Shown here: positions 5,158 through 31,069 of the stretch, piece by piece
How the letters are laid out: each line of letters starts with the position of its first letter
Position numbering within the stretch: position 1 is the stretch's first letter
IMG/VR virus record: IMGVR_UViG_3300009320_000080
Coordinates: 1 to 31,694 of that record
DNA: 31,694 nt
Reading direction: 5' to 3' (one strand)
Source of the DNA: a virus
Notes under the pieces: model-generated
The model's input: only the letters and a program-made list of their open reading frames with translations
Databases searched by the model: none
What the model was told of the DNA's origin: nothing
Program-made: the position numbers and the translations under genes

Positions 5158-5353
5158 CGCGCAACTCCTCGATTGCGAAGATGCCTTCCTCGATTGCTGC
5201 TACAGCCTCTTCCATGTCGTTCCCTCGTTCCGACTGTTGCAAGGATTCGGGAAGATTGTCTATCGCCTCTTGTTCTTCTTCAAGAAGATTCTCCAATTCA
5301 AGCAACGCGGTTTTTGTAAGTTGCGCTATCCGTTTTCGTCTTGCGTTGTTCAT
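5147..5353 (-). CDS. Small acidic coiled-coil phage protein (NLPESLQ family)
   Basis: This is the first gene after the control region. GGGAG lies six bases before ATG 5353. The 68-residue product starts basic (NNARRKRIAQL) and becomes an acidic helix, LLELENLLEEEQEAIDNLPESLQQSER, followed by a second helix ending in IEELRDAF. The pattern of RRK, then EEEQEAxxNLPESLQxSE, is frequent in small phage proteins of unknown function. The probable promoter at 5408-5436 gives a leader of about 45-50 bases, so this gene heads the early transcript. Confidence 0.7.
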   Translation of the reverse strand: MNNARRKRIAQLTKTALLELENLLEEEQEAIDNLPESLQQSERGNDMEEAVAAIEEGIFAIEELRDAF

Positions 5354-5397
5354 CTCACTCTCCCTGAAAAAGAATTGTCAAAGGTCCCACCCGGACC

Positions 5398-5409
5398 CTG
5401 TAGATACAG
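5398..5409. promoter_or_regulatory. Perfect 5-bp-arm palindrome, candidate operator
   Basis: CTGTAGATACAG has perfect arms CTGTA and TACAG around two bases. It overlaps the -10 element and the expected start point of the leftward early promoter, where a repressor dimer would block transcription. It resembles half of a LexA box but is too short (12 rather than 16 bp). The XRE regulator at 4691-4912 is the obvious candidate binder; that link is inferred. Confidence 0.45.
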
Positions 5410-5436
5410 TATTTCCGATTCATTCACCCTTGTCAA
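5408..5436 (-). promoter_or_regulatory. Leftward sigma70-type early promoter
   Basis: Read on the minus strand, TTGACA (5436-5431, perfect -35) is followed by a 17-base spacer and AATACT (5413-5408, four of six bases of the -10 consensus). The predicted start is near 5401, about 48 bases before the ATG of the first early gene. The surrounding DNA is AT-rich and an A-rich run lies upstream, which can help promoter strength. The position, directly before the early operon, fits the assignment. Confidence 0.65.
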
Positions 5437-5472
5437 GTTTTTTTCTCAATTTATTTTCAGTCAATACAAGGC

Positions 5473-5495
5473 GACGTGATGTCACGTGTTGCTGG
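5473..5495. repeat. 23-bp flanking direct repeat, copy 1
   Basis: GACGTGATGTCACGTGTTGCT followed by GG. It matches the copy at 5634-5656 at 21 of 23 positions (AT against GC near the centre). Within it, ACGTGA and TCACGT form a perfect inverted repeat around two bases, so it could bind a dimeric protein. The two copies bracket the three 45-bp units. Confidence 0.75.
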
Positions 5496-5496
5496 A

Positions 5497-5631
5497 TTGA
5501 TATCAATGCGAATTTAACTGTCTATAATTCTGGCACTTATTTTGATATCAATGCGAATTTAACTGTCTATAATTCTGACACTTATTTTGATATCAATGCG
5601 AATTTAACTGTCTATAATTCTGACACTTATT
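5497..5631. repeat. Three tandem 45-bp direct repeats (iteron- or operator-like)
   Basis: Units begin at 5497, 5542 and 5587, exactly 45 bp apart and with no spacer. Units 2 and 3 are identical; unit 1 differs by one base (G for A at 5532). Each unit opens with the perfect palindrome TTGATATCAA and later carries TGTCTATAATTCTGACA, an imperfect inverted repeat with TGTC/GACA ends that the base change in unit 1 breaks. Each also contains a perfect TATAAT on the plus strand, but no well-spaced -35. The units are very AT-rich. Iterons of a replication origin, a cooperative operator array, or multiple promoters are all possible. Confidence 0.9.
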
Positions 5632-5633
5632 TT

Positions 5634-5656
5634 GACGTGGCGTCACGTGTTGCTGG
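5634..5656. repeat. 23-bp flanking direct repeat, copy 2
   Basis: GACGTGGCGTCACGTGTTGCT followed by GG, the partner of the copy at 5473-5495. Here TGACG and CGTCA form a 5-bp inverted repeat with a three-base centre, just downstream of the stop of the last lysis gene. It is too weak, and lacks a T-run, to be a convincing terminator. Confidence 0.7.
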
Positions 5657-5663
5657 GAGGTCG

Positions 5664-5843
5664 TTATGAAAAAATACGGTCGCGGTCTTTCGGCTGGTAG
5701 GGGTCGCGGTACCTGCCCTTGCGTCGGTCTTCGATGCGTAACCGACCCGATCGGATGTTCTGCACCTGTTTCGCGGCGATACGTTCACCGATGGCAAGTC
5801 CGGCGTCGAGCAGTTTCAGGACCATGTCCACGATGCCGGTCAT
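5664..5843 (-). CDS. 59-residue protein ending the lysis operon
   Basis: A short gene whose ATG overlaps the stop of the lipoprotein gene (ATGA), with AGGTGA six bases upstream. The N-terminal half is an amphipathic or weakly hydrophobic helix (IVDMVLKLLDAGLAIGERIAAKQ). The C-terminal half is strongly basic and tyrosine-containing (RRKGRYRDPYQPKDRDRIF). The composition is protein-like, unlike the opposite strand. Small proteins with a helix and a basic, YxxPY-type tail often close phage lysis cassettes, but the function is unknown. Confidence 0.65.
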   Translation of the reverse strand: MTGIVDMVLKLLDAGLAIGERIAAKQVQNIRSGRLRIEDRRKGRYRDPYQPKDRDRIFS

Positions 5844-16594: not shown

Positions 16595-18052
16595 CTACAA
16601 AGCCTCCATGCGTCTGCCCACGTCTGCGGATACGCCCTCACCGCTAATACGGGTTTCGGTCACGGTGCCGGGCGGGGCGTTTCGGAAGTTCACGTCCACG
16701 GACACTTGACCGCCCTGTCCACGGTTGCCGCGTATCAGGTTTGCGATGTTCTGCGCTGATGCGGCCATTTCGACCCGGCGCTGCGTCATGGTTTCACCGA
16801 ACCGTTCACGACCGACACCGCGAAGCTGGGTCAATGCCTGCTCACGTGTACCACCGGTCAACTGCATCCACGTGGCGAGGTCCTGTTCGACTTGCTGTCC
16901 ACGGCGTTGACCTTGTGTCTGTTGCGCACCTGCGAACGATACAGCCTCTTTGCCACCTCGATACACGGCTGCGACTCCAGCAGCGCCCATGAAACCAGCC
17001 GCGAGTTTGAACATTCCCGCCATCGCGGACGCACCCGCCGCTGCGAGCATCAACCGCTCTATGTCGATGGCCTTTACGCTACCGTCGAACCGGGCGATAG
17101 CTGATCCAGCACGAACAGCGCCGGCTGCGATCTTGCCCATGGCCGCGCCTATCTCAATGACCGCTTCGCCGGTCTTGCGGATGGTTATCTCATTATCTAT
17201 CCACCACTGCCGGGCCTTTTTCAACCACTCGACGATAGCCATGATGGTTTTTTCGATCTTGGTTGCGATGACCTTTTTGTTGACTACGACCCATTCGGTC
17301 AGTTTTTCGATATACGGTCGCAGAGTCGGCAACAGTTCCGAACCGATGGCGATCTGGACACCTTTCAGCGCGGCCTGCAGGTCCGCTTGTGCGTCCATCC
17401 ACTTTTCTGCGGCCCTTGCCTGTTCTTCACTGACAAGACCATAACGGCGCGCTTCCCTACGCAGTTCCTTGATGCCGTTCTTACCGAGTTCCGTCAACCT
17501 GGCCATTTTCAAGCCTGACCGGCCAAACGCGGCATTGGCAAACGCGGCGCGCTGCGTTTCGTCTTCCATTCCGGCCATTTCATCGATGACAAGTGCGAGC
17601 CCGCCTTCGAGCGTGTCTGTATTCTTGATCGCGTCGAGCATGGCCGGGTTGTACTTGTTCAAAAACGTAACAAGCGTGCCGGTCCCAACTTTGGCCTCAC
17701 CTAAATTCTTTCCGACCTTTTCAAGAGCTTTGTCCATTGTCTCGGTGCCGATACCCGCCCTTTCCGCTGCGAAACGATACTCTTGCAAGGTTTCGACGCC
17801 TATCCCGATCTGTCTACTGAATTTGGCTATTTCGTCTGCAGACTTGCCATACGACTGTACAATCTTGGCAAGACCGACAGCCGCCGCCGTCGCCGCGACG
17901 ACTCCGAATTTGGCCACGCTCTTTGCCGCACCCCTGAATGCGCGGGACAGTTTCGCGGTCGCAACTTTGACCTTACGTACGGTCCGGTTCAACCGCTTCG
18001 ACATGTCGTCTTTGAAACCGAGCCGGGTTTTTATCTTGTAGTCTTTAGCCAC
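16595..18052 (-). CDS. Tail tape measure protein
   Basis: A 485-residue protein starting at GTG 18052, with GGAG seven bases upstream; it overlaps the frameshift extension of the chaperone by eight bases. The N-terminus is basic (RLNRTVRKVKVATAKLSRAF), followed by hydrophobic stretches (VVAATAAAVGL; AAGAVRAGSAIARF; MAGMFKLAAGFMGAAGVAAV) and the family segment KSADEIAKFSRQIGIGVETLQEYRFAAERAGI. Alpha-helical, alanine-rich content is typical. It sets tail length as a scaffold inside the tube; at roughly 0.15 nm per residue, a known rule, 485 residues would give a short tail near 70 nm. It is shorter than Mu gp42. The C-terminal tail is polar and probably binds gpN. Confidence 0.8.
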   Translation of the reverse strand: MAKDYKIKTRLGFKDDMSKRLNRTVRKVKVATAKLSRAFRGAAKSVAKFGVVAATAAAVGLAKIVQSYGKSADEIAKFSRQIGIGVETLQEYRFAAERAGIGTETMDKALEKVGKNLGEAKVGTGTLVTFLNKYNPAMLDAIKNTDTLEGGLALVIDEMAGMEDETQRAAFANAAFGRSGLKMARLTELGKNGIKELRREARRYGLVSEEQARAAEKWMDAQADLQAALKGVQIAIGSELLPTLRPYIEKLTEWVVVNKKVIATKIEKTIMAIVEWLKKARQWWIDNEITIRKTGEAVIEIGAAMGKIAAGAVRAGSAIARFDGSVKAIDIERLMLAAAGASAMAGMFKLAAGFMGAAGVAAVYRGGKEAVSFAGAQQTQGQRRGQQVEQDLATWMQLTGGTREQALTQLRGVGRERFGETMTQRRVEMAASAQNIANLIRGNRGQGGQVSVDVNFRNAPPGTVTETRISGEGVSADVGRRMEAL

Positions 18053-18505
18053 GTCCCTGCTCCAGCGGACGGCCGTAGAACATGAGGTCGTCCAGCGTTA
18101 GACTTTCAAGCGCGTCAGGTGGCCAGTGATACGTCAAGGCGAAGACGGTCAAGTACTCTCGCCAGTTTCCTGGCCACCCCCCAATAAAGGGGCGATCTGC
18201 TCCGTCATGCGGGTCATTTCGTCAATGGACAGGCTGTTGACCTGTTCCTCGGTCAGACCCGCGATACGTTCGGCGCATATCAGACCCAATTCCAACGGGT
18301 CGATGTCGATCTCGTCCGTACCTGCGATCCTGTGGTCAGGATGGCGGGACAGGTACGCGCGAAGGTCACCGGTGTTGGTCTTGCGGCCGAATATCAACTC
18401 GGTCGTTTCAGACCCGTTACCGTTCATCTGCATCGGTTCATCCAGTTTCACAACGATAGGCGGGTCAACTGCACCGCGTACGCGCATGTTCGGTTTGTTG
18501 CTCAT
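18045..18505 (-). CDS. Frameshifted tail assembly chaperone (gp41-extension fusion)
   Basis: The ribosome is predicted to read the chaperone gene for 110 codons, slip back one base on GGGGGGT (18182-18176), and continue in the -1 frame for 43 codons to the TAA at 18047-18045. The added part starts WPGNWREYLTVF and contains YHWPPDALESLTLDDLMFY, the kind of segment seen in lambda GT and P2 E+E' products, where a tryptophan-rich helix binds the tape measure. The 153-residue product would be the minor form. The -1 frame has no start codon, so it can only be made this way. Its stop overlaps the tape-measure GTG start by eight bases, as expected for translational coupling. Confidence 0.8.
18149..18505 (-). 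CDS. Mu gp41-like tail assembly chaperone (main product)
   Basis: A 118-residue chaperone (phage_TAC family) that coats the tape measure during tail assembly and is not in the finished tail. ATG 18505 is chosen with GAGG five bases upstream; the GTG at 18511 has no such spacing. The pattern VVKLDEPMQMNGNGSETTELIFGRKTNTGDL, then LELGLICAERIAGLTEEQVNSLSIDEMTRMTEQIAPLL (read here in short parts) matches Mu gp41. The last residues GGGQETGEST are encoded over the slippery site. It follows the tube gene with little gap. Confidence 0.85.
   Translation of the reverse strand: MSNKPNMRVRGAVDPPIVVKLDEPMQMNGNGSETTELIFGRKTNTGDLRAYLSRHPDHRIAGTDEIDIDPLELGLICAERIAGLTEEQVNSLSIDEMTRMTEQIAPLLGGGQETGEST
18176..18182 (-). 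other. Slippery heptamer for -1 ribosomal frameshift
   Basis: On the minus strand the zero-frame codons are TTG GGG GGT, giving the heptamer G GGG GGT of the X XXY YYZ type. Both tRNAs can re-pair after a one-base slip (GGG to GGG, GGT to GGG). It lies ten codons before the chaperone stop, and the -1 frame then stays open for 43 codons. I did not find an obvious strong hairpin immediately downstream by eye. Confidence 0.75.
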
Positions 18506-18512
18506 GCTCACC

Positions 18513-18872
18513 TCACGGAGTTATCTCAGACCCTTCCAGACCTTCGAGCCGGAACGGTGCCACACCCTCTTTGTGGTCGATGACCAACGACGCAGACAGC
18601 CACGCGTCCTCGATCGCGTAACCGTAGCCGCGCGCGTCCGTAACCTGGGCCTTACCCGACAATGCCTCGAAATCATCCACGGACGTATCCTCGTCCATGA
18701 TGATGTTGCCCTCGATGTACGGCGCCTCACGGGTTTCAGTGTACCCGGCCACGGTGTTGTCATCGGCCATGACTGCCTCACGGGTTATCCCTTTGATATT
18801 GCTGGATATCCCGCTGGTTTTGAACGATGATCCGTCCCATTCAAAATTCGAGTAACCTGCTATTCTGCCCAC
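18513..18872 (-). CDS. Mu gpM-like tail tube protein
   Basis: A 119-residue tail tube protein, nearly the same length as Mu gpM. AGGAGG precedes GTG 18872. The family pattern is clear: FEWDGSSFKTSGISSNIKG, TREAVMADDNTVAGYTE, EAPYIEGNIIMDEDTSVDDFEALSG and TDARGYGYAIEDAWLS. It stacks as hexamer rings inside the sheath. It lies right after the sheath gene, as in Mu. Confidence 0.9.
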   Translation of the reverse strand: MGRIAGYSNFEWDGSSFKTSGISSNIKGITREAVMADDNTVAGYTETREAPYIEGNIIMDEDTSVDDFEALSGKAQVTDARGYGYAIEDAWLSASLVIDHKEGVAPFRLEGLEGSEITP

Positions 18873-18882
18873 GTGTCACCTC

Positions 18883-20469
18883 CTAGGCGGCGTATTGGAG
18901 CCGGAAAGAATGTTTGATGGCCACGACCCGCTTCTGGTTCATCAGGTCGGGCGGGAATATCATGTCAATACGGTTCGGGTCATCGCCGCTGCGTTGGACG
19001 ACGAGCTCGGCCATAAACGCGGCCTTGTTCTCGACCAGACCGCGCCTGATCCAGCCGTCGTACAGGGTCGCGCACAGACCGCGAATGTCCATCGGTCTGA
19101 CAATGGCCTGTCCAGCGGATACCGGCGTACCGTCGTCAGCAAGTTTGTGCCGGCCGTAATTCGACTCGATGGCCGCTGCCAGTTCCCGATTCAGGATGGT
19201 CAACGTGGCCGGGGTCTGTACGTCCAGCCATGCGTCATCCGGCGCGCCGTTCGCATCGGTCAAGTAATTAGTCCGTATCCGCTCCATATAAAGCCTGCCG
19301 CCGGATACGTACGTGGTTGCGATGCCGTCCATGAGCAGGACCTGACGTTCTGCCATGGTAAAGATGTCGTTGTCGCGCGGCGGTACAATACCGTGCAGAC
19401 GCAGCCGTTGCAGGGGTCGCGCCGGGTCCATGTCCAGATATCGCGCACACGCCCCGGTCACTGCCCCGGCCATTTCCCACGGCGGGGATGGCACATGGTC
19501 GAGTCCGGTTATCGAGTGGTGAGGGTCGTTGCGCGAGGTCCCGAACGTAGACAACACCGACCGCGAACCGACGATGGAGCTGAACATATGGCCGTAGATG
19601 GCCCTGGAATATCCCCACCTGCCGTTGTCGCCCATTTCCGCTTCAAACAGGTCTAGCGGGGTAGCCGGTGTGGACATGGCCGCGAACGGATGGCCGATGT
19701 AGTCGTATTCCACGTCGCCCATGGCCGTGATGGTGGCCGGGACCGTGGGGTCGCCCGTACCCGCTGCCAGCGCGCCCATTTCGTCCGTGATGACCACGGA
19801 CACGCCAGCGGGGAAGGCTTCGCCGTCTTCTGCGTTCAGGGACAGAAAAATATTGTCCGTGTGCGATGCGTAACCGCCGAGCGTTCCCTTGTTGCGCGCG
19901 GTCAGGGTCACGACTCCAGCCGCGTTGCTGGCCGTGACGGGATATGGTGACTTTGCTGTAACCGCAGCCGCCTCGTTCACGCCCAGCGCGTCTTCAATGG
20001 CGTCCCCGATGTCGGTCGCAGTGTCGGTGTCAGACACCGCTATCCCAATGACAGACCCGTCCTGCGTGCCGCTACTCCCGAGGTCGTCGAGTAGTTGACC
20101 GCCGACACGGAAATACAGAGTCCCATCCGCAGTTGCAGGTCCGGTTATGGTCAGTTTACCGGTTGCAGCAGTTGACCCGCCCGCGTCTGCGATGCCGATG
20201 CAGTACAGTTTACCGGTCGAGTTGTTGGCACGGAACGCGACTACAGATCGGTGCAGGTGCGATCCGAATTCGAAAGCGTCTGCCGCCTCTGATGCCGGGC
20301 CGATATCGACTACAGTTTCAGCCGTAGCCGAACCCGTCGATATCATCTGCGCGATCAGCAACGACGGCTTGGCCGTGGACAGACCGCTGCCGGCCTGACT
20401 CGCGTCCATTTCGATGTAAGTACCGGGTACGCGCAAGTTTGCTGGGATATGGTCGAATGATACACCCAT
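18883..20469 (-). CDS. Mu gpL-like contractile tail sheath protein
   Basis: A 528-residue sheath protein that proves the contractile tail. GGAGG precedes ATG 20469. The N-terminus has VSFDHIPANLRVPGTYIEMDASQA, the gpL family start (ending in PGxYxExD). The central part is GYSRAIYGHMFSSI and LGS-type repeats, and the C-terminal handshake part is DGIATTYVSGGRLYMERIRTNYLTDANGAPDDAWLDVQTP, YGRHKLADDGTPV, RPMDIRG and RIDMIFPPDLMNQKRV (short parts of a continuous match). Residues 110-210 form an extra beta-rich, low-complexity domain, likely exposed on the tail surface. It is a little longer than Mu gpL. Confidence 0.92.
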   Translation of the reverse strand: MGVSFDHIPANLRVPGTYIEMDASQAGSGLSTAKPSLLIAQMISTGSATAETVVDIGPASEAADAFEFGSHLHRSVVAFRANNSTGKLYCIGIADAGGSTAATGKLTITGPATADGTLYFRVGGQLLDDLGSSGTQDGSVIGIAVSDTDTATDIGDAIEDALGVNEAAAVTAKSPYPVTASNAAGVVTLTARNKGTLGGYASHTDNIFLSLNAEDGEAFPAGVSVVITDEMGALAAGTGDPTVPATITAMGDVEYDYIGHPFAAMSTPATPLDLFEAEMGDNGRWGYSRAIYGHMFSSIVGSRSVLSTFGTSRNDPHHSITGLDHVPSPPWEMAGAVTGACARYLDMDPARPLQRLRLHGIVPPRDNDIFTMAERQVLLMDGIATTYVSGGRLYMERIRTNYLTDANGAPDDAWLDVQTPATLTILNRELAAAIESNYGRHKLADDGTPVSAGQAIVRPMDIRGLCATLYDGWIRRGLVENKAAFMAELVVQRSGDDPNRIDMIFPPDLMNQKRVVAIKHSFRLQYAA

Positions 20470-23072: not shown

Positions 23073-25037
23073 TCACGCGCCTGCGTTGTAGGCCAGCCCG
23101 CGCCAGTCTTTCGCCTTCGCAGCGAAGAATTGCCGCCACTGAACCACAACCGCATCAATGCTTTCCTCGCGGTAGGACTTGGTTTCGGGACCGTCAGTAC
23201 CGGCAAGGAAACCGTAGTCCACGGTATCGATCTCGTTCGGGCTGGCCGCGCCGTACCATTTGACCGCGCTCAGACCGTTCAGGATCGGGTCTGCGACTAC
23301 CTGTAGCTGTTGCTGCGCCTTCGTCGCGACCGTTGCGGACGATGTCGGCTGATACCCGGCAGTCTCCATCAACTGGTCCACGCCGAATTTGAGCGCCCAC
23401 GGAATGATTAGGAAACGCATCGGAACGCCGACGGTCGCCACGTCATCAACGCCGGTCTGCGTTGCGATCAGGGTGTCTAGTTGCGCGATACGGACCGCAG
23501 TCGGTACGCCAGCAGACCCGCCGATGTTGCTGTGGTCGGCATGAAACAAGACCGTTCCATCACCCATCGCCGGGTTTGCATTGAGCACGCCGCTGTACAC
23601 GGTCACGCTTTGCTTGCGGGCGCACGCTGAACCGGCTTTGATTGCCAGTCCGACGAAAGCATCGATATCGTCATCGATTGCCATCTCGTCACTGTACGCG
23701 AAACGGTTGCCGGACTTGGAAAGCGCCCACTGCTCACGCCTTTCGCCGAGTGTGACGTACTGGTATTCACCCAGTTCGGCCACGTCCTCGGTATTCGGGA
23801 ATTCTCCGACCGCAATTTCGTTCTTGGTCTGGAGGTTGCGAAGGTCACGTCGTCTGCACCACAGCGGGAAAGTACGCATGTATTCCGTATATGCCTTCAT
23901 CATGGCTTTCTCGCCCACGTCTGCGAACACGAACGGGAAGTCGGATGTCGAATGCGGTCCGGCGCGCATGGCCAAATCAATTACCTTTGTAGGCGGCATG
24001 GTTCGGGTACCGCCGACGCCCTTCTTTGCCAGGTGCTCGCGGGCCATGTCCACGATAGACATGTAGACAAACGGGTTTGACCGTTCGTCAATCTCCATGT
24101 CAGGGAATGAACGCTTCATCAATGCGCCGGTCATGCCTTTGGCGCGCGTGTCGAATTCGTCCACTTCAACACTGACCTGGTTGTGCGTTTCGGTTTCGGC
24201 GTCGGCGCGGTCCGCGTGCAGGTCGATGAGTGCGCCGCGTACCTCGTCCAGCGTCTTGTTGCTGTTGCGGAGATCGAGATATTCATCGGAGTCGCGGTCG
24301 ATCTCGAGCTTGCGCGCTGTCAGTTCGATACCATCGATCCGTTTGCGTGCCAGTGCCTCGCCCTCTTTCCGGGCCTTGTCAGTTTCGGCCTTTACGTCCA
24401 CCTCCGGCTTGCGCTCATCGGCAGGCGTTTCGACCTTTTCGTCGGTCTTGCTTTCCTTTCCCATGTTTTCCTCCATGGTTTCGAGTGAATCGCTTGATCG
24501 AAACGAAGCCGCCGCATCCGCGCCAATCGGCACGGCGGACAGTTCGTATGGTTCCCAGTCCGTGACCCGTACATCGTCGGGTCCATCTTCGTTTTCAGTC
24601 ACGTCCTGTTTGTGGATGACGTAACCGACTGAAATGTTGCGGATGATGCCGTCCTTGATGTCGGCAACGGTGTCAGCGTTGCGGTCGGCACTGGACAGCC
24701 TGACGGTCGCGTACGCCTTGCCGTCTTTGAGTTCGGTGCTGTCAGCGGTCACGTGGCCGATCACGCTTTCAAGCTTGCGGCTGTCATGCGCGGCAAGAAA
24801 CGGGGCGTTGCCGGAATTAAGCCGATCGAGCCTGACAGCCTTTTTACTGATCTCCAACACTTCGTTATACGGGCCACGTACCCACGAATAGCGTTTGACT
24901 GGTGCCTCAGTCGTCCATAGGATATCGACCGTTCTCTTTTCTTCGTCGTACGTTTCAGGTGCGAACGTAGCCTCACGGCTGAAAAGTTCCATCCCGTCAC
25001 GCTTGATGGTTTCAGGTTTCGTCGGTTTATCCGCCAT
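23073..25037 (-). CDS. Prohead protease-major capsid protein fusion
   Basis: A 654-residue protein; GAGG precedes ATG 25037, which overlaps the portal stop by eleven bases. Residues 15-180 form an HK97-type prohead protease (U35): LNSGNAPFLAAHDSRKLESVIG with His84, IIRNISVGYVI with Ser136, and YELSAVPIGADAAA. Residues 185-300 are charged and helical (many E, K, R), like a scaffolding delta domain. Residues 300-654 match Mu gpT-type major capsid protein: TRTMPPTKVIDLAMRAG, SDFPFVFADVGEKAMMKAY, FPLWCRRRDLRNL, YQYVTLGERREQWALSKSG and the final DYGFLAGTDGPE. One chain thus supplies protease, scaffold and coat; self-cleavage would free the coat. An internal ATG at residue 192 (EENMGKES) could also allow a shorter product. 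Confidence 0.85.
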   Translation of the reverse strand: MADKPTKPETIKRDGMELFSREATFAPETYDEEKRTVDILWTTEAPVKRYSWVRGPYNEVLEISKKAVRLDRLNSGNAPFLAAHDSRKLESVIGHVTADSTELKDGKAYATVRLSSADRNADTVADIKDGIIRNISVGYVIHKQDVTENEDGPDDVRVTDWEPYELSAVPIGADAAASFRSSDSLETMEENMGKESKTDEKVETPADERKPEVDVKAETDKARKEGEALARKRIDGIELTARKLEIDRDSDEYLDLRNSNKTLDEVRGALIDLHADRADAETETHNQVSVEVDEFDTRAKGMTGALMKRSFPDMEIDERSNPFVYMSIVDMAREHLAKKGVGGTRTMPPTKVIDLAMRAGPHSTSDFPFVFADVGEKAMMKAYTEYMRTFPLWCRRRDLRNLQTKNEIAVGEFPNTEDVAELGEYQYVTLGERREQWALSKSGNRFAYSDEMAIDDDIDAFVGLAIKAGSACARKQSVTVYSGVLNANPAMGDGTVLFHADHSNIGGSAGVPTAVRIAQLDTLIATQTGVDDVATVGVPMRFLIIPWALKFGVDQLMETAGYQPTSSATVATKAQQQLQVVADPILNGLSAVKWYGAASPNEIDTVDYGFLAGTDGPETKSYREESIDAVVVQWRQFFAAKAKDWRGLAYNAGA

Positions 25038-26864: not shown

Positions 26865-28823
26865 TTACCGAGTCCGTTGAAACACCGGTCTGCGGCGACG
26901 TGCGGGCTGTTGTCCAGCGTGCCGGGGTGGGGTCTGCATCTGTTTCCGCCTCTTGGCCTCACGCGGTTGCCTGTTTTGTTTAAGCTTGTATCCCTGGCCG
27001 GCCAGACCGACCATGGCCGCGTATGCGTACACACGACAGTCCCACGCTTCGACCGGTGCGCCTTGCGGGGCGACCCATAGGGTGGCCTTGTGGCCGGTCT
27101 TGGAATACCGCGTCTGTTTCGACTCCGCTGTCAGTTGCCGAAAATAACCGGGTACGTCGCCTTCACGGTCGCCTATCCACGGCTGGTTGCGCGGAAAATG
27201 ACAGAAACCGGGTCCGTGTTCGGTTACTTGTAGACGTGCGAAACAGTCGTTCTTTGCAGCGGTTACACCGACGAGCCGGAGTTTGATCCTGCCCTTGAAT
27301 GGCTTGCTGAATTTCGACAGGTCGAAGATCGGTCGCTCGCCCTGCGGGGTATCCGCTCCGCCCTTGATCGGCCATACGCGCCTTTTCTCCTTTTTGTAGC
27401 AGAAACGATAGACGGTCTGTGACTGGTACCCGGAGTCAATGCAACACGCGTGGATGGGTAGGTCGAATATTGCGTGCGGAAACGTGGTCGTTTTCAGGTA
27501 TTCGTCTAGCACGGACCATGGCCCGGTATCTGACAGGTCCGTGGGGTCGCCCCAAAAAATACGATAGTCAATGGACCAGCTCTCGTATTTGTCCGTCCAC
27601 GCGACTACCTCCATTTCCAGGCGGTTGTCCTGAACGTCAACACCGGCCGTGACCAGATAAGCGTCTTCGGGCAGTTTCGGGGCGAACCGTTCAACACGTT
27701 CTTCAAGGTCGCCCATGTCCAGCTTCTCGCCGTCGTCTTCGTCCCATGTCTCGGCCAGCACTGTGTTGATCCATGTCTTCAACCTGACCGGGTCGTTTTT
27801 CACCTCAACGAATTCGGCCGCGATCACGCCCCACGTGTCCCATCCGTGCGGCGCGTACAATGCAGATAGATGATATCCGGCCGTTTGACCGTCCCCGACT
27901 CTGGATGCGCGCCACTCGCCACGGGGTAGCATGTACTCCTTTTCGTGGTTTTCGATACGACCGCCGCAATATTCGCATTCGTAATAGGCTTTCTCCGGTT
28001 CGTTGCCAGGCCACTTGATGCGATATTCCCCGGTGTCCTTGTCGCGCCATCGCAGGACTTGCATTTTTTCGCAGCGCGGACACGGCACCCAGTATTCGCG
28101 CCAGTCGCTATTCTCCATCGTCTTCTCGATACGGGACGCGCCCTTGACCGTGGGCGTGGACGTGATCAGGTGTTTTCTGCTCGTCGAATAGGTCCGGGTC
28201 CGTTTCTTTGCCAGTGATATCGGGTCGCCTTCCCCGCCCACGTCGATAGGGTAGGCGTCAACCTCGTCCGTGAACAAATACCGTATCGGTTTGCCGCGAA
28301 ACCCCGTGGCCACGTTCGCGCCCGTGAAGTGCAACACGCCGCCTGGAAACCGTTTTTCCTTGATCGTGTTGTCAGAGTCGCGCAGTCTCGGATCGCCGAC
28401 CTTTTTGCGGAGACTGGGACAGTTGAAAATGAGGTTGCTGACACGGCCTTTGGATTCACGCTCGGCATCGTTCAAGGTCGGTTGCACGGCCAGAATGGGA
28501 CCGGGCGCATAGTCGATGACGTATCCCATCCACGCGTTGCCGCCGGTCGTTTTGCCCATCTGCGCCGCGAACATGAGCGCAACCGTTTCGACAGGATCGT
28601 CAACGGACAGCCTTTCGAGTATCTCCCGCATGTACGGTGTGACGTTGACGCGGTACCGGCCCGGGATCGCGCCATCCGCCGTGGTCAGGATCATGTTTTT
28701 TTCCGCCCACTGCCACACGTTCAAAGGCGGCGGCGGACGATACAGTGATAGGTCAGCGGTTTCGTGGTCGAGGGTGGTTGCAGGTTCACCTATAGAACAA
28801 GTCCTGTTGTCGTGTCGCTTCAA
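26865..28823 (-). CDS. terL: Terminase large subunit, lambda gpA family
   Basis: A 652-residue packaging motor and nuclease, near the 641 of lambda gpA. TTG 28823 is chosen: AGGAG lies seven bases upstream and it overlaps the methyltransferase stop (TTGA). The N-terminal ATPase has AAQMGKTTGG as a variant Walker A, LFTDEVDAYP as Walker B and LITSTPTVKGASRIE as the coupling motif. CPRC and CEYC form a zinc-binding insert typical of gpA. The C-terminal nuclease carries the acidic residues in VTAGVDVQDNRLEMEVVAW, CCIDSGYQSQTVY and APVEAWDCRVYAYAA. The last 40 residues are basic. In other phages of this family the small subunit gene lies directly upstream; here two genes intervene. Confidence 0.93.
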   Translation of the reverse strand: MKRHDNRTCSIGEPATTLDHETADLSLYRPPPPLNVWQWAEKNMILTTADGAIPGRYRVNVTPYMREILERLSVDDPVETVALMFAAQMGKTTGGNAWMGYVIDYAPGPILAVQPTLNDAERESKGRVSNLIFNCPSLRKKVGDPRLRDSDNTIKEKRFPGGVLHFTGANVATGFRGKPIRYLFTDEVDAYPIDVGGEGDPISLAKKRTRTYSTSRKHLITSTPTVKGASRIEKTMENSDWREYWVPCPRCEKMQVLRWRDKDTGEYRIKWPGNEPEKAYYECEYCGGRIENHEKEYMLPRGEWRASRVGDGQTAGYHLSALYAPHGWDTWGVIAAEFVEVKNDPVRLKTWINTVLAETWDEDDGEKLDMGDLEERVERFAPKLPEDAYLVTAGVDVQDNRLEMEVVAWTDKYESWSIDYRIFWGDPTDLSDTGPWSVLDEYLKTTTFPHAIFDLPIHACCIDSGYQSQTVYRFCYKKEKRRVWPIKGGADTPQGERPIFDLSKFSKPFKGRIKLRLVGVTAAKNDCFARLQVTEHGPGFCHFPRNQPWIGDREGDVPGYFRQLTAESKQTRYSKTGHKATLWVAPQGAPVEAWDCRVYAYAAMVGLAGQGYKLKQNRQPREAKRRKQMQTPPRHAGQQPARRRRPVFQRTR

Positions 28824-31069
28824 GGGTTGACTCCTGCCTGCTTGAACAATTCCAACTCTGCGGTTTCGGCCTGTTTCAGGTTCGTCTGCGCGACTTTCCA
28901 ATATGTTTCTTTGAGTTCAATGCCGATGAACTGCCGTCCGAACCTGACAGCTTGATATCCTTCCGACCCAATGCCTGCGAACGGTGAAAAGACCACGTCG
29001 CCCGGGCCGCTCCATAGTTTGACGCACCGTTCGATAACGCCCAATTGCAGCGGACAGAGGTGTTTCTCGTCGTCTGCGTCCTTGCTACTCCTGACCGACA
29101 GCACGTCACTTTCCCTGATACCGCCTTTCCCAATTCGATGGTGGCCATACCAAACCGCCGATGCCCACTGTATCCATTCCTCACGGGTTATCCATCCATC
29201 CGGATTGCGTTTTCGCGGGTCTTGATGGTCGATCAGAGCTCGTATCGGTTTCGGATTGTCGCCCTTCTTTCGGAATTGCAGCAGATAATCCGGCATGGTC
29301 CCTGTCAGGATCGAGCTATCTTTCGCGGCCGTCTTCATAGCTAGCCCGTGGTCCTTGGTGCGTGCAGCTTTCAGTTGCGGGTCTTTGTCTATGGTCCTCT
29401 CACTGACATATGCCCATCCGCAATTTTCCATCATTATAATGACGTGGCCGCGGAAGTCCCGAAGACCAGAATATCCGGCTTGGTATTTGAAGATCGGCTC
29501 TTGGGTCAGGTGGATGCAGCAGGACCGTCCCGGCATCGTGATTCGGAGTATCTCAGGGGCCAGGTATCTGAAATGCTCTATCAGCGTTGCCGTATCCTTG
29601 CAGTTGCCGATATCTCGTTCACTGTTCGTATATGCGTACATCCCAGGGAAGGGTGGACTAAACACAGACAGCCCGATGGACTCATCGTCTATTTCCTTGA
29701 TGCGTTCGACTGCATCCCCGAGCATGAGTGTCCAGCCGTTACCGGTCGCGTCGTTCGTCTTGTACTTCATTCTATTCCTCCCCTGTTTATCGAGTTGTAG
29801 CCCTTGCATGTGTCCGACGATATTGGCCATCATTGCGGCCGCCTGTTTTTCCTTGCGTGCGATATTGGCGCGGACGTTGCCCTCGGTACTGGCAGTGACT
29901 ATGTGGGCCGTGACCGGCTTGGTCTGACCAAATCTCCAGCAACGTCGGACGGCTTGATAGAACTGTTCATAACTATCAGATAGCCCGAGAAACACCACGT
30001 CCGAACAGCGTTGGAAGTTCATCCCATGACCAGCAATCGTCGGCTTCGTCACCAGACACCGAACGTCACCGTTTGCGAAATCGAGCAAGGTCTTTTCCTT
30101 GTGGTCAACTGCGTCACTGCCCTTGACTTCGACTGCGCCGTCGATGGCTTTCGTGGCCATCTCCGATTCTCTGTTCAGGTTGCACCATACGATCCACGGA
30201 CCCGGGTTGCCGTTGATGATATCCGCTGCCCGTTGCACCCGTTTCTCTATCGATTCGCGCCGTGCTTGCCGTCGTTCGTCCATCGTGATTGCGTCCATCG
30301 CAAATAACATCCCCTCAGTCGGCGTGGTTACGTGGATAGTCTCATCTTGCAAGGTCAGGGGTGGCAATTTGAATCCGTTATCGTCGTATCCTAGATCGGA
30401 TGGTGCACGCATCGCAACCGACCACGTAGCCATCCACCGCCAGAACGCCTCCCGAGCATGCCCCTTCAGCCTCCACTTGTGCGTTGTATTGCCGTCCTGG
30501 ATAAAAAACAGCGCGATGATCTGCTTGCCCGTCATGATATCAAGGAATTCCGCATGGTTCGTGAGTTCTGCAAGGTCATTCGGGGCAGGGGTCGCGGTAC
30601 ATGCGAGCCGATACGGTATCCGCTTGCCGAACGCGGTTATTTCCTTGCGGTAGACTCCACCAAAGGACTTGAGTATCGATGATTCGTCGAGCACGATCCC
30701 GGCGTAGTCGTCGGCGTCGAAGTGATTCAGCATCTCATAGTTCGTGATCGTGATCTTGCCCTTCGGTTTGCCGTCACGCGAATACTCGACCGGGATACCG
30801 AATTTCATACCCTCTCGGATGGTCTGTTGCGCGACTGCGAGCGGCGCTAGTATCAGAACATTGCCTGGCACGTGCGTCGCCCATTCCAGCTGCATCGGGG
30901 TTTTTCCAAGCCCGCAGTCCGCGAATATCGCAGCACGCCCACGCTTCAACGCCCATTCGACGATGTCATGCTGGAATTCAAACAACATTGGATTCATGGC
31001 TGGAATGATGTCAAGGCCGGTTGGAATGTCGTCATAGTCTTTCGTTGTCAGGTATTCAGTATATTCCAT
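28820..31069 (-). CDS. SNF2-type helicase fused to beta-class DNA methyltransferase
   Basis: A 749-residue two-part protein. GGAGGAGG precedes ATG 31069. Residues 28-415 are a superfamily 2 ATPase: ADCGLGKT (50-57, Walker A), LDESS (128-131 as motif II, S where many have A/H), TATPAP (158-163) and QAVRRCWRFGQTKPV (372-386, the SNF2-like motif VI). Residues 435-735 are a DNA methyltransferase with motif order IV then I: SPPF (471-474), a target-recognition part of about 200 residues, EKHLCPLQL, and FSPFAGIGSEG (694-704, SAM binding) with GRQFIGIEL. That order is the beta class, so N4-cytosine or N6-adenine methylation is expected. A matching restriction nuclease is not visible. It may protect phage DNA against restriction or mark DNA for packaging. 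Confidence 0.88.
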   Translation of the reverse strand: MEYTEYLTTKDYDDIPTGLDIIPAMNPMLFEFQHDIVEWALKRGRAAIFADCGLGKTPMQLEWATHVPGNVLILAPLAVAQQTIREGMKFGIPVEYSRDGKPKGKITITNYEMLNHFDADDYAGIVLDESSILKSFGGVYRKEITAFGKRIPYRLACTATPAPNDLAELTNHAEFLDIMTGKQIIALFFIQDGNTTHKWRLKGHAREAFWRWMATWSVAMRAPSDLGYDDNGFKLPPLTLQDETIHVTTPTEGMLFAMDAITMDERRQARRESIEKRVQRAADIINGNPGPWIVWCNLNRESEMATKAIDGAVEVKGSDAVDHKEKTLLDFANGDVRCLVTKPTIAGHGMNFQRCSDVVFLGLSDSYEQFYQAVRRCWRFGQTKPVTAHIVTASTEGNVRANIARKEKQAAAMMANIVGHMQGLQLDKQGRNRMKYKTNDATGNGWTLMLGDAVERIKEIDDESIGLSVFSPPFPGMYAYTNSERDIGNCKDTATLIEHFRYLAPEILRITMPGRSCCIHLTQEPIFKYQAGYSGLRDFRGHVIIMMENCGWAYVSERTIDKDPQLKAARTKDHGLAMKTAAKDSSILTGTMPDYLLQFRKKGDNPKPIRALIDHQDPRKRNPDGWITREEWIQWASAVWYGHHRIGKGGIRESDVLSVRSSKDADDEKHLCPLQLGVIERCVKLWSGPGDVVFSPFAGIGSEGYQAVRFGRQFIGIELKETYWKVAQTNLKQAETAELELFKQAGVNP

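Follow-up and report, generated by a model that had tools for sequence, protein, structure and literature searches.

The tail assembly chaperone gene of the DNA analysed here very likely encodes, as judged from comparison with relatives, an E/E'-type (G/GT-type) protein pair through a programmed -1 frameshift. We assign a probability of roughly three in four to the more specific reading in which this G/GT (E/E+E') pair is produced by slippage most likely at the heptamer C_CCT_TTA, the G-run after it being more plausibly read as belonging to a hairpin, 5 nt downstream, than as a slip site itself. A preliminary description of this DNA had already proposed a -1 frameshift in the chaperone gene, which the comparison strongly supports, but the site that it named, G_GGG_GGT, is probably wrong, with C_CCT_TTA occupying the homologous slip position.

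The window (the whole stretch of DNA analysed, a 31,694-base virus record from IMG/VR) carries on its minus strand head genes for a terminase GpA, a lambda-type portal and a prohead protease fused to a capsid protein, together with a tail module of the Mu type that includes sheath, tube, chaperone, tape measure, DNA_circ_N and gp44-like hub genes (Table 1). In the fused head gene, the prohead protease (S78) and the capsid domain share one open frame of 654 aa (23073-25037, minus strand). Two further observations concern other parts of the window: a protein of 749 aa (28820-31069, minus strand) combines a SNF2-like helicase with an N6/N4 DNA methylase, and the translation of an ORF on the plus strand (5181-5669) holds a three-copy short tandem repeat, DINANLTVYNS[GD]TYF. 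The chaperone gene lies downstream of the tube gene and adjoins the tape measure gene on its upstream side, the position of a frameshifted tail chaperone. Its 0 frame matched PF10109 (Phage_TAC_7) with 22.5 bits (E=1.1e-4), rising to 24.9 bits (E~2e-5) when the extension was included, compared to a curated Pfam cut-off of 25.

Table 1. Coordinates of the tail genes and of the features at the chaperone junction (positions in the window).
Feature	Positions	Strand	Remarks
Tail sheath, Mu gpL type	18883..20469	-	PF04984/PF17482; 33-42% identity to Mu- and SfV-type sheaths
Tail tube protein	18513..18872	-	PF10618, E=1.5e-14
Tail assembly chaperone, 0 frame	18149..18505	-	ATG at 18505; alternative GTG at 18511 (18149-18511)
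C_CCT_TTA heptamer, in phase, most likely slip site	18185..18191	-	Codon-aligned with C_CCT_TTC of L029
G_GGG_GGT heptamer, in phase, less likely slip site	18176..18182	-	Without counterpart in 130 relatives
Candidate stimulatory hairpin	18117..18179	-	Arms 18179-18170 and 18126-18117; 9 Watson-Crick pairs and 1 G-U
Extension in the -1 frame	18045..18185	-	46 codons if C_CCT_TTA slips, 43 if G_GGG_GGT does, then TAA
GpE/E'-like core motif of the extension, YHWPPDALESLTLDDL	18084..18131	-	PF06528 positions 5-24; alignment with P2 E' and relatives
Tape measure protein	16595..18052	-	phrog_8125, E=4e-37; GTG start at 18052

The 0 frame of the chaperone gene ends as GCC CCT TTA TTG GGG GGT GGC CAG GAA ACT GGC GAG AGT ACT TGA, where C_CCT_TTA is located 9 nt upstream of G_GGG_GGT. 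The preliminary description had correctly found the second heptamer in phase at the end of the gene but treated it as the single slip site, overlooking the first. The -1 frame stays open between 18221 and a TAA at 18047-18045, inside the start region of the tape measure gene, so that the stop/start overlap described before was confirmed, as were the 43 codons opened by a slip at G_GGG_GGT and the 153 residues of the shifted product computed from the ATG. This length is the same whichever heptamer slips, and both products differ at one position only, Ile or Leu, with junction peptides ...APLIGGWPGNWR and ...APLLGGWPGNWR, which cannot be separated by mass because the two residues weigh the same.

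The extension itself gave matches to PF06528 (Phage_P2_GpE) with 15.7 bits (E=0.011; curated Pfam cut-off 23) and to the tail protein family phrog_6416 (E=0.0011). A clearer result was obtained with a profile made from 98 distinct extensions of relatives, from which the window was left out: run over the window's ORFs in all six frames, it matched the -1 ORF at 18045-18221 with E=9.2e-9, with no second match under E=2. The core motif of the extension, which had been likened to P2 E' previously, can be aligned with P2 E' and relatives. A homologous extension in the shifted frame and a slippery site in the overlap are both present, as in frameshifted chaperones, and since homology was matched in that frame alone, a programmed -1 frameshift becomes very likely.

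Relatives were surveyed by gathering sheath homologues from 181 loci (phages, viral contigs and genomes) and reading mechanically the junction before the tape measure gene; these readings were checked by eye in part, and several labelled as 'none' correspond to truncated contigs or unparsable junctions. At 131 loci, window included, the junction holds a -1 extension together with an X_XXY_YYZ heptamer in phase, with T_TTT_TTC at 80, T_TTT_TTT at 27, T_TTT_TTG at 7, C_CCA_AAG at 6, and also C_CCT_TTN and a few others. The -1 direction is used by SfV, ST64B, AH07, YeP1, BgVeeders33, BZS1, PBb002, YPCBV-1, RR1-A and most of the surveyed prophages. As for C_CCT_TTN, nine relatives have it near the junction, five (L029, L102, L126, L137, L151) as their sole heptamer and four together with T_TTT_TTN. 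In most relatives the site is T_TTT_TTN, positioned a codon later. The preliminary description had named the slippery site of related phages as a point of comparison, and there an open -1 frame homologous to that of the window is indeed kept along with a slippery heptamer, but the heptamer is not G_GGG_GGT, which is absent from the junction of all 130 relatives. The closest relatives found have sheaths only about 45% identical to that of the window; the chaperone and DNA_circ_N proteins, used directly as queries, gave no close relatives, a nucleotide search of phage records gave none, and the relatives found through gp44 (L184-L186) have no readable junction.

Some junctions showed peculiarities of their own. 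In Gilliamella prophages (L143, L153, L160, L166, L167, L170), the slip heptamer is C_CCA_AAG instead of T6, a sequence among the most efficient in E. coli, where it reaches 54% with the IS3 pseudoknot (PMC4066793). In two Mesosutterella porci prophages (L128, L131), a GpE-like extension follows CCT CTT TTT GGA in the +1/-2 frame and the Mu motif is lacking; the direction of the shift may have changed independently there.

The assignment of the slip to C_CCT_TTA is supported by L029 (IMGVR_UViG_3300035698_013581), the clearest match to the window at the junction, with a sheath about 41% identical. Both frames align there without gaps, ...IAPLLGGGQETGEST in the window vs. ...VGPFLEKFQGTGETE in L029 for the 0 frame, and ...PLIGGWPGNWREYLTVFALTYHWPPDAL vs. 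...PFLGEVPGNWRDGIAFLAAVYRWPPSEL for the -1 frame, and L029 has a PGNWR...WPPSEL extension like that of the window. Its C_CCT_TTC is placed exactly at C_CCT_TTA of the window, and is the sole slip candidate in L029 because the G6 run is missing, GGG GGT of the window corresponding to GAG AAG there. In the 17 tail, head and packaging genes of the window, X_XXY_YYZ occupies 19 of the 6683 in-phase positions, two of them in the last 15 codons of the chaperone gene, and codon shuffles of this gene yielded at least one heptamer in the 24-codon overlap in 9.4% of the cases and at least two in 0.9%. As shuffling produces them this often, heptamers alone constitute weak-to-modest evidence, in contrast to the homology of the extension, which is strong evidence.

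A 10-bp stem can form 5 nt after C_CCT_TTA and its 5' arm would take up part of the G-run, although its predicted stability was not significantly above that of shuffled sequence (11 of 200 shuffles at least as stable, z -1.1 to -1.9). The hairpin is thus only suggestive, as it is not clearly above chance and results in part from two TGGCCA (Trp-Pro) codon pairs. A search for structure conserved in the downstream RNA of 104 distinct junctions gave a mean z of -1.0 and 24 values below -2, revealing no general signal.

Slippage at G_GGG_GGT, the site proposed at first, has in its favour that this heptamer is canonical, in phase, closer to the stop than C_CCT_TTA and followed by the same open frame, but it is considered unlikely given its lack of counterparts among the relatives. 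When all 64 heptamers were measured in E. coli (Sharma et al., 2014; PMC4066793), a host from which that of this phage may differ, G_GG.G_GG.U was the lowest of all without a stimulator (0.018%), and UUN codons were on average more prone to shift than GGN. In that same host, C_CC.U_UU.A is not among the best motifs either because UUA is a heterogeneous ZZN codon. Moreover, the predicted stem does not stand at the usual downstream spacing for G_GGG_GGT, since it contains part of this heptamer. That the G-run is truly used, alone or in tandem with C_CCT_TTA, and aided by a hairpin that contains part of it, is quite improbable; if so, it would represent a natural case of a slippery site presumed non-functional, this heptamer being essentially inactive in E. 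coli when no stimulator is present.

Explanations that dispense with a -1 shift fare worse. The extension could be a separate small protein, for instance by termination-reinitiation at the TTG that overlaps the 0-frame stop (TTGA, 18152). The claim that the extension has no start codon of its own was not strictly true, as this TTG, a second TTG and an internal ATG are in its frame. A parallel is offered by Paraburkholderia/Caballeronia type phages and prophages (L005, 5104-5370; L034, L039, L111, L114) in which GGC TTC TTC replaces the T6 slippery run and a conserved GTG opens the extension shortly after the chaperone stop, with a -1 frame relation in L005 and +1 in the other four; this clade seems to have abandoned frameshifting, with the extension now translated from a gene of its own. 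In the window, reinitiation is nonetheless very unlikely, as the W/F-P-x-N/D-W stretch kept among relatives (WPGNW) is located just 3' of the slip and upstream of the start-like codons, so it would stay untranslated, and two heptamers are present. It is still less probable that no extension is made and that the open -1 frame is a product of chance or a relic: the Pfam scores of chaperone and extension do fall under the curated cut-offs, but the profile match is confined to the -1 frame, and the position, the stop/start overlap and the heptamer recur across the 131 loci. Least probable of all is a -2 or +1 shift as in Mu, despite the Mu-type tail genes and a G-run near the end of the chaperone gene as in Mu, because the -2/+1 frame of the window extends only 34 nt past the 0-frame stop and lacks the motif of the extension, and the [C/A]GG GGG CGA of Mu kin is absent from the window's junction.

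The longer form of the tail-assembly helper is, as a rule in tailed phages, made by -1 slippage. For the pair proposed here, with slippage at C_CCT_TTA, most ribosomes would complete the 0 frame to give a short chaperone that coats the tape measure protein, and a few per cent would slip -1 shortly before the gene ends. Pro-tRNA and Leu-tRNA would then pair anew with CCC TTT, the A site being occupied by TTA, which, at 7 of 6700, is used less than any other sense codon of the phage. The P2-E'-like C-terminus of the resulting 153-residue form would recruit tail tube subunits. These functions are put forward by analogy with lambda G/GT and P2 E/E+E', in which the short product attaches to the tape measure and the less abundant long one brings in tube subunits (PMC5009743).

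Different phages employ -1, -2 and +1 shifts for the extension of the tail chaperone (reviewed in PMC5009743, among others). The preliminary description regarded a -1 shift in a Mu-type chaperone as a notable variant, a view that does not hold, given the 131 loci with -1 and the KS10 paper (PMC2628397), which already speaks of '-1 (or -2 in Mu)', crediting Xu et al. (2004). Among relatives with Mu-type tails, -1 with a canonical heptamer is the majority form and the -2 of Mu the minority form, its motif [C/A]GGGGGCGA being restricted to Mu, D108 and close kin (L011, L013, L015, L017, L021, L164, L175, L178), as AGGGGGCGA in L013 and CGGGGGCGA in the rest; their extension is in the -2/+1 frame except for L164, whose automatic frame call was mixed. 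In a sheath tree of 116 rows, the window is on a long branch with -1 rows as the nearest ones, and -2 rows cluster more than shuffled labels. The window is a divergent addition to a recoding family that is already well known, and its case shows that a slip site should be placed by comparative alignment and not at the most eye-catching homopolymer.

Compared to known systems, the window resembles P2 E/E+E', with its established -1 shift at T_TTT_TTG (PMC3091744), in the position before the tape measure, the TAC_7 and GpE domains, the direction of the shift, the HWPP core motif and the stop that overlaps the tape measure start, but differs in the heptamer and in that the rest of its tail is of the Mu type (DNA_circ_N, gp44, gpL sheath). 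Phages of the SfV/ST64B type share with the window a similar head/tail combination, the tail gene order and a -1 extension before the tape measure, but they slip at T_TTT_TTC or T_TTT_TTT and their extension carries YWRINP/FWRINP, whereas that of the window carries HWPP. Finally, Mu gp41 (-2 at CGG GGG CGA) belongs to a tail with homologues of the window's sheath, tube, circularisation and baseplate genes, but its extension is read in the -2/+1 frame and follows another conserved motif.
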